Assembly (NCBI RefSeq): GCF_026341815.1 | Contig: NZ_JAPENX010000001.1 | Coordinates: 186,001 to 250,000 of the forward strand | DNA length: 64,000 bases | Origin: Streptomyces sp. NBC_00572 | Lineage (GTDB): Bacteria > Actinomycetota > Actinomycetes > Streptomycetales > Streptomycetaceae | Direction: 5' to 3' | Part shown: piece by piece, positions 8,282-24,318 of the stretch | Layout of the letters: every line of letters begins with the position of its first letter | Position numbering within the stretch: position 1 is the stretch's first letter | Notes under the pieces: generated by a model | Database searches by the model: none | What the model was told of the DNA's origin: nothing | The model's input: the letters and a program-made list of their open reading frames with translations, nothing else | Program-made: the position numbers and the translations under genes

Positions 8282-8354
8282 GCGGACGTGGCTCAGTTGG
8301 TAGAGCATCACCTTGCCAAGGTGAGGGTCGCGAGTTCGAATCTCGTCGTCCGCT
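8282..8354 (+). tRNA. tRNA-Gly (anticodon GCC)
   Basis: Cloverleaf with acceptor GCGGACG/CGTCCGC, anticodon stem TCACC/GGTGA, loop TTGCCAA (anticodon GCC) and T arm with GTTCGAAT. CCA is not encoded. First gene of a five-tRNA run on the plus strand. Confidence 0.97.
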
Positions 8355-8393
8355 CGATGTGGGGGATCTTCCCGAACCCCTGTATTCACTCCT

Positions 8394-8464
8394 GGTGGAG
8401 TGGCCGAGAGGCGAGGCAACGGCCTGCAAAGCCGTCTACACGGGTTCAAATCCCGTCTCCACCT
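8394..8464 (+). tRNA. tRNA-Cys (anticodon GCA)
   Basis: Acceptor GGTGGAG/CTCCACC, anticodon stem ACGGC/GCCGT with loop CTGCAAA (anticodon GCA), T arm GGGTTCAAATCCC. 71 nt, no encoded CCA. Confidence 0.97.
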
Positions 8465-8468
8465 CCAA

Positions 8469-8540
8469 GCGCGATTAGCTCAGCGGGAGAGCGCTTCCCT
8501 GACACGGAAGAGGTCACTGGTTCAATCCCAGTATCGCGCA
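8469..8540 (+). tRNA. tRNA-Val (anticodon GAC), copy 1
   Basis: Acceptor GCGCGAT/ATCGCGC, anticodon stem CTTCC/GGAAG with loop CTGACAC (anticodon GAC), T loop TTCAATC. It starts only 4 bp after tRNA-Cys. No encoded CCA. Identical to the next two copies. Confidence 0.97.
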
Positions 8541-8579
8541 CGCAGAACAACCGAAGATCCGGTCCATACGGACCGTCCC

Positions 8580-8651
8580 GCGCGATTAGCTCAGCGGGAG
8601 AGCGCTTCCCTGACACGGAAGAGGTCACTGGTTCAATCCCAGTATCGCGCA
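8580..8651 (+). tRNA. tRNA-Val (anticodon GAC), copy 2
   Basis: 72 nt, identical in sequence to copy 1, separated from it by a 39-bp unrelated spacer. No encoded CCA. Confidence 0.97.
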
Positions 8652-8694
8652 CGCAGTACGCACTACCCTCGGGTAATGTTCGTGTGCACCACCC

Positions 8695-8766
8695 GCGCGA
8701 TTAGCTCAGCGGGAGAGCGCTTCCCTGACACGGAAGAGGTCACTGGTTCAATCCCAGTATCGCGCA
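8695..8766 (+). tRNA. tRNA-Val (anticodon GAC), copy 3
   Basis: Identical to copies 1 and 2 over the 72-nt tRNA. Unlike them it is followed directly by cca, so its CCA end is template-encoded. Last tRNA before the terminator. Confidence 0.97.
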
Positions 8767-21062: not shown

Positions 21063-21920
21063 CTACTCGGCGGCGCCGAAGGCCGGGACGACCGAGCCCT
21101 TGTAGGTGTCCTCGATGTACTTCTTCACCTCGGGCGAGTTGAGGAGCTTGGCGAGCTTCTGCACGCGGGCGTCCTTCTCGTTGCCCTCCTTGACGGCGAG
21201 GAAGTTGGCGTACGGGTTGCCGTCGGCCTTCTCCAGGGCGATGGCGTCCTTCGCCGGCGAGAGCTTGGCCTCGATGGCGTAGTTGCCGTTGATGACGGCG
21301 GCGTCCACGTCGTTCAGGGCGCGGGGCACGGTGGCGGCCTCCAGCTCCTTGAACTCCAGGCCCTTCTTGTCGGTGATGTCGGAGATCTTGGCGTTGGTGC
21401 CGACGCCCGGCTTGATGGTGATCAGGCCGTTCTCGGCGAGCAGCTGGAGCGCGCGGCCGCCGTTGGTGGTGTCGTTGGGGACGGCGATGGTCTGGCCCGC
21501 CTTGATGTCCTTCACCGACTTGATGTTCTTGGAGTAGAGGCCCAGCGGCTCCAGGTGGACGTTGACCACCGGGACGATGTGGGTGCTGTTCTTCTTGTTG
21601 AAGTCGTCGAGGTACGGCTTGTGCTGGAAGAAGTTGGCGTCGACCTGGCCGGTCTCGGTGGCGGTGTTCGGCAGGACGTAGTCCGTGAACTCCTTCACCT
21701 CCAGCTTCAGGCCGGCCTTCTCGGCCAGGTTGTCCTTGACGTAGTTGAGGATGTCGGCGTGCGGCGTCGGGGACGCGGCGACGACGAGGGCCTTGGAGGC
21801 GTCTCCGGAGCCGGCCGAGTCCTTGGACCCGGGGTCCGAGGAGGTGCCGCAGGCGCTGAGGCCGAGGGCGAGGGCGGCTGCGGTGGCGATACCGGCGGTG
21901 AGCTTGATGTTCTTACGCAC
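21063..21920 (-). CDS. metQ: Methionine-binding lipoprotein MetQ
   Basis: A protein of 285 residues, NlpA/MetQ family. The lipoprotein signal KLTAGIATAAALALGLSAC has a lipobox L-S-A-C giving a lipidated Cys near residue 26. The mature part contains LVVAASPTPHADILNYVKD, ETGQVDANFFQHKPYLDDFNKK, VHLEPLGLYS, IAVPNDTTNGGRALQLL and AVINGNYAIEA, all typical of MetQ methionine-binding proteins. GTG 21920 has AGAGG about 10 nt upstream. It is the last gene of metN-metI-metQ. It sits on the outer face of the membrane and delivers Met (possibly also related thiols) to MetI. Confidence 0.94.
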   Translation of the reverse strand: MRKNIKLTAGIATAAALALGLSACGTSSDPGSKDSAGSGDASKALVVAASPTPHADILNYVKDNLAEKAGLKLEVKEFTDYVLPNTATETGQVDANFFQHKPYLDDFNKKNSTHIVPVVNVHLEPLGLYSKNIKSVKDIKAGQTIAVPNDTTNGGRALQLLAENGLITIKPGVGTNAKISDITDKKGLEFKELEAATVPRALNDVDAAVINGNYAIEAKLSPAKDAIALEKADGNPYANFLAVKEGNEKDARVQKLAKLLNSPEVKKYIEDTYKGSVVPAFGAAE

Positions 21921-22012
21921 GAAGAGTGCCTCTTTCCGGTGGAGCGGTGGTCGCCTGGACAACAAGTCCGGGCTGTTCTTCGAAGGACGAAGTCTGGGGT
22001 GGCCGGGGGGCG

Positions 22013-22681
22013 TTACGCGGTACGGCCCCGGCGGGCGAGGAGTCGTACGACTCCGTCGCCGATGAGCTGGACGACGGTCACGATCAGGACCAGGACGACC
22101 ACGGTGACGAGCATGAACGTGGTGTCGAAGCGCTGGTATCCGTAGGTGACGGCCTTGGAGCCGAGGCCCTCGCCGCCGACCGCGCCGGCCATCGCGGAGT
22201 AGCCGATGAGGACGATGACCGTGGTGGTGACGCCCGAGATCAGCGAGGGCAGGGCCTGCGGGAGCAGCACCTTGCGCACGATGGTGGGGATCCCGCCGCC
22301 CATGGCCTGGACGGCTTCGACGAGCCCGTGGTCGACCTCGCGGATCGAGGTCTCGACGAGGCGCGCGAAGAAGGGGATGGCGCCGATGGCGAGGGGCACG
22401 ATCATCGCGGTCGGGCCGATGAAGGTGCCGACGACGAGGGTGGTAAACGGGATCAGGGCGATCAGCAGGATGATGAAGGGCAGCGAACGCCCGATGTTCA
22501 CGATCGCACCGACGACCTTGTTCACCGGCAGGTTCTGCAGCAGGCCGCCCTTGTCCGTGAGAACGAGGAGGATGCCGAGCGGCAGGCCGCCGAGCACGGT
22601 GACGACGGTGGCCCAGAGGACCATGTAGAGGGTGTCGACGGTGCCCTGCTCCAGCAGTGGCTGCATCTCGGACCAGGTCAC
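22013..22681 (-). CDS. metI: Methionine ABC transporter permease MetI
   Basis: A protein of 222 residues with five hydrophobic segments. The EAA-type coupling loop is REVDHGLVEAVQAMGGGIPTIVRKVLLP at about 122-150. The typical start is WSEMQPLLEQGTVDTLYMVLWATVV. The GTG at 22681 overlaps the metN stop by 4 bp (GTGA), so translation is coupled. Confidence 0.94.
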   Translation of the reverse strand: MTWSEMQPLLEQGTVDTLYMVLWATVVTVLGGLPLGILLVLTDKGGLLQNLPVNKVVGAIVNIGRSLPFIILLIALIPFTTLVVGTFIGPTAMIVPLAIGAIPFFARLVETSIREVDHGLVEAVQAMGGGIPTIVRKVLLPQALPSLISGVTTTVIVLIGYSAMAGAVGGEGLGSKAVTYGYQRFDTTFMLVTVVVLVLIVTVVQLIGDGVVRLLARRGRTA

Positions 22682-23760
22682 TTGGCACCTTCCTTCACGA
22701 GCAGGGTCGCCGTGTCCTGGACAACCGTTTCTTCGGTAAGCGTCTCCTCGACGACCTCGACCTGGAGGCCCTGCTCGCGCAGGAAGCCGACCGGGACGAC
22801 GTTGTCCTCGTACCGCCCGGGCAGTTCGATCCGCATCCGGCCGATCTGCTTGCCGCCGACGGTGTCCATCGCCGCCCCGAGGATCGAGATGTCGATGTTG
22901 TACGTGCGGGAGAGCTGCGAGATGACGGGCTGGGTCGCGGCGTCGCCGTGGAAGGTGACGTCGACGACCGTGCGGTCGGGGCCGGTGTGGGCGCCGCTGA
23001 CCGGGAAGAGCTCGGCCGCCAGCTGGGAGCCGGGGGTGGCGAGCAGTTCGCCGACGGTGCCGGTCTCGACGACGCGGCCGTACTGCATGAGCGCGGCGGA
23101 GTCGCAGATCGTCTTCACGACGTCCATCTCGTGGGTGATGAGCAGGACGGTCAGGCCGAGCTGCTGGTTGAGGTCGCGCAGCAGCTGGAGGATGGAGCGG
23201 GTGGTCTCCGGGTCGAGGGCGCTGGTGGCCTCGTCGGAGAGCAGGACCTTGGGCTTGCCGGCGAGGGCGCGGGCGATGCCGACGCGCTGCTTCTGACCGC
23301 CGGAGAGCTGTCCGGGGTAGGACTTGGCCTTGTCGGCGAGGCCGACCAGGTCGAGGAGTTCGAGGGCGCGGCGGGAACGCTCGGCGCCCGAGACGCCCAG
23401 GATCTCCAGGGGAAGTTCGATGTTGTCCTTCACCGTGCGGGAGGACAGCAGGTTGAAGTGCTGGAAGACCATGCCGATGCTGCTGCGCGCCCGGCGCAGG
23501 TCCTTGCCCGCCCGGCGGCCCTTGCCGGCGAGTGCGGTGAGGTCGACGCCGTCGACGGTCACGGTGCCGGAGGTGGGGCGCTCCAGGAGGTTGACGCAGC
23601 GGATGAGCGAGGACTTGCCGGCGCCGCTCTGGCCGATCACGCCGAACACCTCGCCCTCGCGGACGTGGAGGTCGACACCGTCCAGAGCGGTGACCTGGCG
23701 GCCGCGCGACTCGTAGACCTTGGTCAGGCCCGAAGTGGTGATCACAGGGGTTTCCGTCAC
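22678..23760 (-). CDS. metN: Methionine ABC transporter ATPase MetN
   Basis: A protein of 360 residues from GTG 23760; a GTG at 23793 and later starts are possible and none has a good SD. Walker A is GQSGAGKSS, the signature is YPGQLSGGQKQRVGIARAL, Walker B is VLLSDEATSALD, and the switch His is LLITHEMDVV. The C-terminal region from about 275 (DRTVVDVTFHGDAATQPVISQLSRTYNIDISIL) is a NIL domain, which in MetN binds methionine and inhibits the importer when internal Met is high. So both feedback at the protein level and leader-peptide control upstream are suggested. Confidence 0.94.
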   Translation of the reverse strand: MTETPVITTSGLTKVYESRGRQVTALDGVDLHVREGEVFGVIGQSGAGKSSLIRCVNLLERPTSGTVTVDGVDLTALAGKGRRAGKDLRRARSSIGMVFQHFNLLSSRTVKDNIELPLEILGVSGAERSRRALELLDLVGLADKAKSYPGQLSGGQKQRVGIARALAGKPKVLLSDEATSALDPETTRSILQLLRDLNQQLGLTVLLITHEMDVVKTICDSAALMQYGRVVETGTVGELLATPGSQLAAELFPVSGAHTGPDRTVVDVTFHGDAATQPVISQLSRTYNIDISILGAAMDTVGGKQIGRMRIELPGRYEDNVVPVGFLREQGLQVEVVEETLTEETVVQDTATLLVKEGAK

Positions 23761-23953
23761 TGTCGAGTGCGCGACGCGGGGTCCGTCGTGCACGGGGCAT
23801 TCGTCTTCGGACAGTCAGGCGCACGGAGGCCGCTCCGGCGGGTGGCCGGGAGTCGGCGGTGCGCGGGGGCGGGCACGGTCCGCCGCCGGAAGGCGGGAGG
23901 AACGGCACGGCCGTCGGGTCTCGCTTCGGGGCGCGAAACTCAGGCGGGGGCCC

Positions 23954-24040
23954 TCAGAAGGCGCACATTCGACACATACAACGAGCACCGGGCGTGATGA
24001 TCGCCTCGGTCGCAAGGGTGCGGCTGCTCGTCGTGGTCAT
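23954..24040 (-). CDS. Putative Cys/Met-rich leader peptide of metNIQ
   Basis: A 28-codon ORF beginning MTTTSSRTLATEAIITPG and ending ARCMCRMCAF, that is three Cys and two Met codons in the last eight sense codons. It ends about 190 bp before metN on the same strand. No SD is visible before the ATG, so the message may be leaderless. Short leader peptides with a C-terminal cluster of Cys codons upstream of sulfur-metabolism genes are known in actinobacteria, where ribosome stalling controls downstream expression. The inter-region holds hairpin-forming sequence (gtttcgc/gcgagac; ccgccttccggcgg). Stalling on scarce charged tRNA-Cys or tRNA-Met is an inference. Confidence 0.65.
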   Translation of the reverse strand: MTTTSSRTLATEAIITPGARCMCRMCAF

Positions 24041-24082
24041 GTCTGCAAGTAAAGCATGCGCAGGTGCGAACGAAAGGAGGCT

Positions 24083-24097
24083 GTCCGAATAGCGGAC
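24083..24097. promoter_or_regulatory. Palindrome gtccg-N5-cggac upstream of the leader ORF
   Basis: Perfect 5-bp arms (gtccgaatagcggac), 43 bp upstream of the leader peptide ATG, in a position where a repressor could act on the met promoter. No family can be assigned. Confidence 0.3.
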
Positions 24098-24318
24098 GCC
24101 TTTGAGACGCCATGCGGACACTTCGGAGGCCGTCCTTCCGCTCTCTTTCCGCGCGTGGCCTGCGGGGACGGGCCCGGTGGATCGGTGCCCGCGCGCGGGG
24201 CGGGAGGGCTGTGCGGGGGCGGGTTGTGGCCCAGGCCACGCCCGGTGACCCGGACGTGCCGGGAGGGCGGTGGGGGGCGAGCGCATCGGGCCTTTCGGCC
24301 CGTAATACCCTCGGGCGC

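Follow-up and report, generated by a model that had tools for sequence, protein, structure and literature searches.

The metNIQ operon for methionine import in Streptomyces sp. NBC_00572 is preceded by a small ORF with a cluster of Cys and Met codons at its end, and this Cys/Met-rich leader, as judged from the sequence, probably tunes methionine import by the ease of decoding its codons. We lean toward the reading that the leader peptide, translated from a leaderless mRNA, would control metNIQ through the progress of ribosomes over the mixed Cys/Met codons near the stop codon. With charged Cys-tRNA or Met-tRNA in short supply, the ribosome would slow or stall at codons 21–26, and the downstream mRNA would be held in a form that permits metNIQ expression; when Cys and Met are both plentiful, ribosomes would clear the ORF and metNIQ expression would drop. 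Codons 21–26 are the putative sensor, and the supply of charged tRNA would be the signal by analogy with known leader peptides. All positions given below refer to the window, the whole 64,000-nucleotide stretch of DNA that was analysed.

The leader ORF and its conservation within Streptomyces

The leader ORF (metL), MTTTSSRTLATEAIITPGARCMCRMCAF, occupies 28 codons at 23954..24040 on the minus strand, from ATG at 24040 to TGA at 23956-23954, as defined by the sequence and the genus alignment. Its Cys codons are 21, 23 and 26 and its Met codons are 22 and 25, in agreement with the first-pass annotation of this DNA, which had described a 28-codon ORF with three Cys and two Met among its last eight sense codons. 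The proposed sensor segment, Cys-Met-Cys-Arg(CGA)-Met-Cys at codons 21-26, lies at 23963..23980 (minus strand) and is based on the genus alignment, the cross-family comparison and CGA codon counts. No second small ORF with at least four Cys plus Met among its last eight codons was found in the whole window, and 100 window-wide dinucleotide shuffles yielded on average 0.00 small ORFs with a tail of at least five Cys plus Met and 0.01 with at least four, the leader's own Cys/Met tail being matched in 0/100. A cluster of five tRNA genes was observed at 8282-8766 on the plus strand of the window.

The operon downstream, also on the minus strand, consists of metN, encoding an ABC ATPase with NIL domain (22678..23745; Pfam PF00005, ABC_tran, and PF09383), metI, encoding the permease (22013..22690; PF00528), and metQ, encoding an NlpA-type lipoprotein (21063..21950; PF03180), the starts of metI and metQ being approximate. 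The metN Shine-Dalgarno core, GGAA, was located from the sequence at 23752..23755 (minus strand). The gap between the leader ORF and metN is 208 nt with GTG 23745 as the start and about 193 nt with GTG 23760, the latter matching the spacing of about 190 bp given earlier.

A −10 hexamer, TTTACT, is positioned 7 nt 5′ of the leader ATG (24048..24053, minus strand). In all 110 aligned relatives such a hexamer is located 6–7 nt 5′ of the ATG (TTTACT in 106, TTTAAT in two, TTAACT in two), and the leader ORF is therefore considered leaderless. For the S. lividans orthologue, RNA-seq places the beginning of transcription at the leader ATG itself (PMC8079986) and not downstream of the leader, the position that would have spoken against the initial reading. 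Further upstream, an inverted repeat, GTCCG-N5-CGGAC, is located 43–57 nt 5′ of the ATG (24083..24097, minus strand); it is the sole copy in the window, and 69 of the 110 relatives carry it exactly, usually at −56 to −58. On this sequence evidence it is a possible operator for some regulator. NdgR was considered as the protein at this repeat and rejected, as the published NdgR motif resembles the repeat but differs at the inner bases, and the main text of PMC4340878 does not mention metN.

Of the 121 same-genus genomes, 115 yielded MetN; the upstream sides were taken for 114, of which two were cut by contig ends. A recognisable leader was present ahead of metN in 112 of the 112 same-genus genomes with enough upstream sequence, including one version of 37 codons (L105). 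The 110 aligned leaders range from 28 to 36 codons, and the changes in length are of whole codons, mostly between codons 21 and 24. Cys21 is kept in 103 and Cys23 in 105 of the 110, and Cys26 in 81 (Arg in 27, His in two); Met22 is kept in 92, the other 18 having L, R, T, P, S or V; Met25 and Arg24 are each kept in 109, Arg24 being encoded by CGA every time; and the final residue varies. At least two Cys and at least one Met fall within the final 12 codons of 107 of the 110 leaders, so that the loss of frame or of C-terminal Cys/Met codons in relatives, named at the outset as a ground for abandoning the proposal, was not observed. The richest small-ORF tail within 600 nt upstream was scored against dinucleotide shuffles for a set of 37 of the 110 Streptomyces upstream regions, and over this set the Cys+Met pair ranked first (z 28.8). 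Upstream of three MetN-like paralogues of about 50% identity (L115, L116 and L117, the second copies in genomes G096, G051 and G042), a Cys-rich small ORF was not found.

Cys/Met leaders of other families and the Arg(CGA)-Met-Cys core

A covariance model of the leader, applied with strict filters, matched 29 of 296 class-wide genomes, of which 28 belong to the same genus and one (G521) to the family f19; this last match (E 1.4e-8) is likewise located upstream of metN. MetN was found in 71 of the 101 genomes of the order to which G521 belongs, and 70 upstream regions, referred to as the f19 set, were analysed by the same enrichment test. Cys+Met was the first of the 190 residue pairs (z 19.8), with the antisense strand giving z −0.4 and rank 128, and among single residues Met (z 12.7) and Cys (z 9.9) were followed by Lys (4.5). 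Enrichment at p ≤ 0.02 was detected in 30 of the 70 regions, spread over 15 of 22 genera; the 40 regions without a significant Cys/Met leader include 22 of the 25 from the largest genus, g39, of which three were significant. In the family f3, a Cys/Met-rich leader, for example MIDTQSSRTSAATKAPRMMCGCMPSCRMCSC, follows a TATAGT box at all seven MetN genes (14 genomes), and Met is frequent in these leaders. The mixed Cys/Met content described initially for this DNA thus recurs in small ORFs before metN of two further families, f19 and f3. For 19 metN-like genes of other families, Cys/Met was not enriched (z 1.4, rank 40).

The RNA motifs that follow the stop codon in Streptomyces, GAGGGCCC or CCCCGAAGCG, were found in six of the 30 significant f19 leaders, all from the genera g107 and g124, and were absent from the other 24, which represent 13 genera. 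The codon content is therefore the feature shared among these leaders, and it favours, at the level of sequence comparison, ribosome-based sensing of Cys and Met; as these codons persist where the RNA fold does not, decoding of Cys and Met is the most likely common function. Multi-Met tails such as CCRMRMGRMPAR were observed ahead of metN in three loci of the f19 genus g84 (L223, L237 and L238), and this genus is perhaps the best place for testing Met sensing.

The end Cys-Arg-(Arg)-Met-Cys-x-x-stop is common to the genus, to six of the seven f3 leaders, the odd one having Tyr in place of the last core Cys, and to the f19 genera g107 and g124. A rare-codon core, CGA-AUG, also recurs. Across the 110 Streptomyces leaders, CGA encodes 109 of the 117 Arg residues that precede Met and 0 of the 285 other Arg residues; for the 30 f19 leaders with significant enrichment, the corresponding counts are 13 of 35 and 7 of 164 (Fisher p 6e-7). 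Several f19 leaders are Cys/Met-rich and yet lack the Cys-Arg-Met-Cys motif.

Tentatively, and with less than even confidence, we propose a dual-input translational sensor, in which one peptide would read both Cys and Met, slow decoding of CGA would pace the ribosome before the last Met-Cys, the sensor codons would be kept in three families, and the RNA output would be lineage-specific. If instead Cys alone were sensed, the Met codons would be incidental and the leader would be the counterpart in Streptomyces of the polycysteine leaderless ORFs known from mycobacteria. This explanation, which we consider unlikely, draws on the replacement of Met22 in 18 of 110 leaders against the retention of Cys21 and Cys23, and on the up-regulation of metNIQ alongside cysteine genes (PMC4991794). 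The same observation is also compatible with the preferred reading: in the S. coelicolor RNA-seq table of that paper, metN, metI and metQ are up 5.2-, 3.5- and 2.3-fold and cysM and cysA are also listed as up-regulated, a rise that fits a shared sulfur signal, with or without a part for the leader. The Cys-only explanation is difficult to reconcile, however, with the retention of Met25 in all but one leader, even if conservation at the RNA level also touches its neighbourhood, with the enrichment of Met by itself in f19 and its frequency in f3 leaders, and with the presence of Arg or His in place of Cys26 in 29 of 110 leaders.

The recurrence of the same end in the genus, f3 and the two f19 genera, together with the CGA bias of the Arg before Met, could also mark a sequence-specific arrest peptide, in which a small molecule, a metal or the redox state, and not empty tRNAs, would make the ribosome stall at the Arg-Met-Cys end with its slow CGA. 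A plain sensor of tRNA charging would not require a core as strict as Arg(CGA)-Met-Cys, and this is a point against charged-tRNA sensing as the explanation. Such an arrest peptide nevertheless appears improbable, since 29 of the 110 Streptomyces leaders have Arg or His instead of Cys26 and the peptide ends in a variable residue, and since the motif is missing from several Cys/Met-rich f19 leaders and has lost its last core Cys to Tyr in one f3 leader.

RNA structure of the leader and the candidate output step

Comparison of relatives predicts a three-way junction within the ORF (23978..24034, minus strand), composed of the stems P1 (codons 3-5/19-21), P1a (7/10) and P1b (11-13/16-18), a hairpin P2 3′ of the stop codon with the conserved loop GCCCCGAA (23920..23937, minus strand), found also in the f19 genera g107 and g124, and a hairpin P3 just 5′ of the metN ribosome-binding site (23767..23793, minus strand). 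In 38 diverse sequences, 95.8% of the cells of the junction and P2 pair, and both-side changes are present in seven of 25 pairs, against a shuffle mean of 1.8 (0/500 shuffles reach seven) and one to five for slid versions. For P3, 86.0% of cells pair and five of eight pairs are changed on both sides, against a shuffled mean of 2.5 (12/500 reach it); the slid control at −3 gave more both-side cells (15 vs 13) but paired in only 32.7%. P2 after the stop and P3 before the Shine-Dalgarno sequence thus give comparative support to the earlier statement that at least two hairpins could form between the ORF and metN. RNAalifold recovered P1a, P1b and P2 from the 38-sequence alignment; in place of P1 it gave a pairing of codons 19-20 with bases after the stop, and since this alternative was returned and P1 was not, the two predicted pairings may compete. 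A whole-leader mutual-information scan was rejected as stem support, because few of its top pairs fall in the named stems and many link unrelated places. At the stop codon, the sequence GAGGGCCCC (window 23947-23955 and relatives) is near-invariant with either TGA or TAG as the stop, and its GGGC could pair with the GCCC of the P2 loop as a candidate pseudoknot.

In the genus alignment, the wobble bases of the ORF are nearly invariant over much of its length, and T-ending codons (GGT, GCT, CGT, TGT) occur that are unexpected at such a high genomic GC. Because the stems P1 to P1b covary within the ORF, part of what is conserved in the peptide, mainly TTS and ATEA to TPGARC, can be attributed to the predicted RNA stems, and codons 22–27 lie outside them. 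The first-pass reading is thus partly supported: the ORF, the hairpins and the mixed Cys/Met content stand, as does conservation in relatives, which that annotation had put forward as a check. Much of the conservation of the N-terminal part, however, belongs to the RNA stems, the element had already been published as metL (see below), and the proposed regulatory step may be either transcriptional or translational. That the junction and P2 with its near-invariant loop form an aptamer, the ORF being a mere carrier, is likewise considered improbable: the near-invariant wobble bases and the stems changed on both sides accord with such an RNA-based switch, but no Rfam match was obtained, 24 of the 30 significant f19 leaders keep the Cys/Met codons without the RNA motifs, and the insertions within the ORF are of whole codons. 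In the search of Rfam families, SAM and other riboswitches included, none was above threshold between the ORF and metN. A search of this genome for additional copies of the RNA element gave no convincing hit, the next best having E 4.9.

With regard to the output of the preferred decoding mechanism, our guess for Streptomyces is that sensor codons, once freed, would cover the metN ribosome-binding region through a pairing designated P4. Its candidate partner for leader codons 23-24 is UCGACA in the flank of the Shine-Dalgarno sequence (23761..23766, minus strand), as suggested by the genus comparison and pairing predictions. The sequence UGUCGA is present within the last 10 codons of 97 of 110 leaders, and 96 of 110 have UCGACA just 5′ of the Shine-Dalgarno sequence; UCGACA was found anywhere in only seven of the 70 f19 upstream regions and in none from g107 or g124. 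The best predicted partner of the Shine-Dalgarno flank is the leader segment that begins 33 nt ahead of the stop codon's end (mean duplex energy −21.5 kcal/mol; other segments, −11.7 to −19.5), and relative to shuffles the pairing of codons 20–28 with the flank scored a mean z of −1.65 (n=55). UGUCGA pairs with UCGACA at a mean probability of 0.49 over the 24 genomes, out of 32, in which both sides were found; in the genome of the window itself, the flank pairs at 0.37 with the leader vs 0.55 with another stretch. No clear compensatory changes were detected in P4, and one-sided breaks occur in several relatives. When a ribosome footprint was masked along the leader in 32 genomes, the opening energy of the Shine-Dalgarno core shifted on average by at most about 0.25 kcal/mol; for the wider initiation region, the effect was only 0.4–0.7 kcal/mol with the A site on codons 21–25, a value of 0.5 was likewise obtained with it on the stop codon, and the window's own genome showed no relief. 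These predictions altogether hint, weakly, at P4 pairing to the metN ribosome-binding site as the output step.

No intrinsic terminator was detected on the minus strand between 23600 and 24400, the two terminator-like sites there being both on the plus strand and upstream of the leader; a terminator with a U-run between leader and gene, as in a classical transcription attenuator, was thus not found. C predominates over G in the leader–metN spacer (on average 0.47 and 0.29 across 32 genomes), which is suggestive of compatibility with Rho-dependent termination, and for this reason termination by Rho within the spacer is kept as the alternative guess for the output.

Relation to known leaders and meaning for sulfur control

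The leader element itself is already known for one species: S. lividans TK24 metL (SLIV_29928), MSTTSDRTPATEATTTPGARCMCRRMCAF, is described as a leaderless metNIQ leader with several hairpins and without a typical Rho-independent terminator, dependent on methionine/threonine and containing several methionines and threonines (PMC8079986). The leader in the window is orthologous, leaderless, located directly upstream of metNIQ and of the same kind of peptide, and one relative (L022) has a peptide identical to the published one. The account of S. lividans metL in PMC8079986 centres on Met and Thr, whereas the Cys codons, the conservation, the RNA covariation and the other families come from the present analysis.

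A second related group is the polycysteine leaderless short ORFs of mycobacteria, reportedly described by Canestrari et al. in 2020. They share with the Streptomyces leader the leaderless start, the Cys codons, the location ahead of sulfur genes and the action through ribosome speed or stalling that is proposed for the leader here (PMC9031893, PMC13236596, PMC9094748), the leaderless start being indicated here by the 110 hexamers and by the published S. lividans start (PMC8079986). The Streptomyces leader differs from them in its mixture of Cys and Met, in preceding a methionine-importer operon, and in that the ORF itself is predicted to form conserved stems. The mycobacterial type is further marked by leader RNA that covers the downstream ribosome-binding site until a ribosome stalls, for which P4 would be the weakly predicted counterpart, and by a response of expression to the supply of cysteine. 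Here and in the alignment consensus the order of residues is CMCRMC and not a contiguous run of Cys codons; by analogy, the leader may operate in the manner of the leaderless Cys attenuators of mycobacteria, yet with Met and Arg codons set between its Cys codons it is not a plain member of that type. Candidate Cys leaders were also proposed for the cys operons of Mycobacterium and P. acnes and for cbs of B. longum, with Rho suggested (PMC1262725), and these share with the present leader a short ORF, Cys codons near the stop and the absence of an obvious intrinsic terminator. Ahead of the methionine operons of actinobacteria, the same survey reported no conserved RNA structure for regulation. 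Among the matches listed from openly licensed papers, none beyond PMC8079986 concerned metL and none a mixed Cys/Met leader. As far as these searches show, the Cys half, the covariation and the mixed Cys/Met small ORFs before metN in three families are new within the searched literature.

The comparative data separate the codons held by RNA structure from the likely sensor codons, and thereby name the candidates. A leader peptide that senses amino acids normally monitors a single amino acid or a single pathway. If the proposed control is true, a leader for both sulfur amino acids would tie methionine import to the Cys/Met pool, and, should the dual-input reading hold, Met codons would here be put to use in a leader-peptide attenuator. 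Ribosome-based control of sulfur genes would then extend from mycobacteria to Streptomyces and other actinobacteria.
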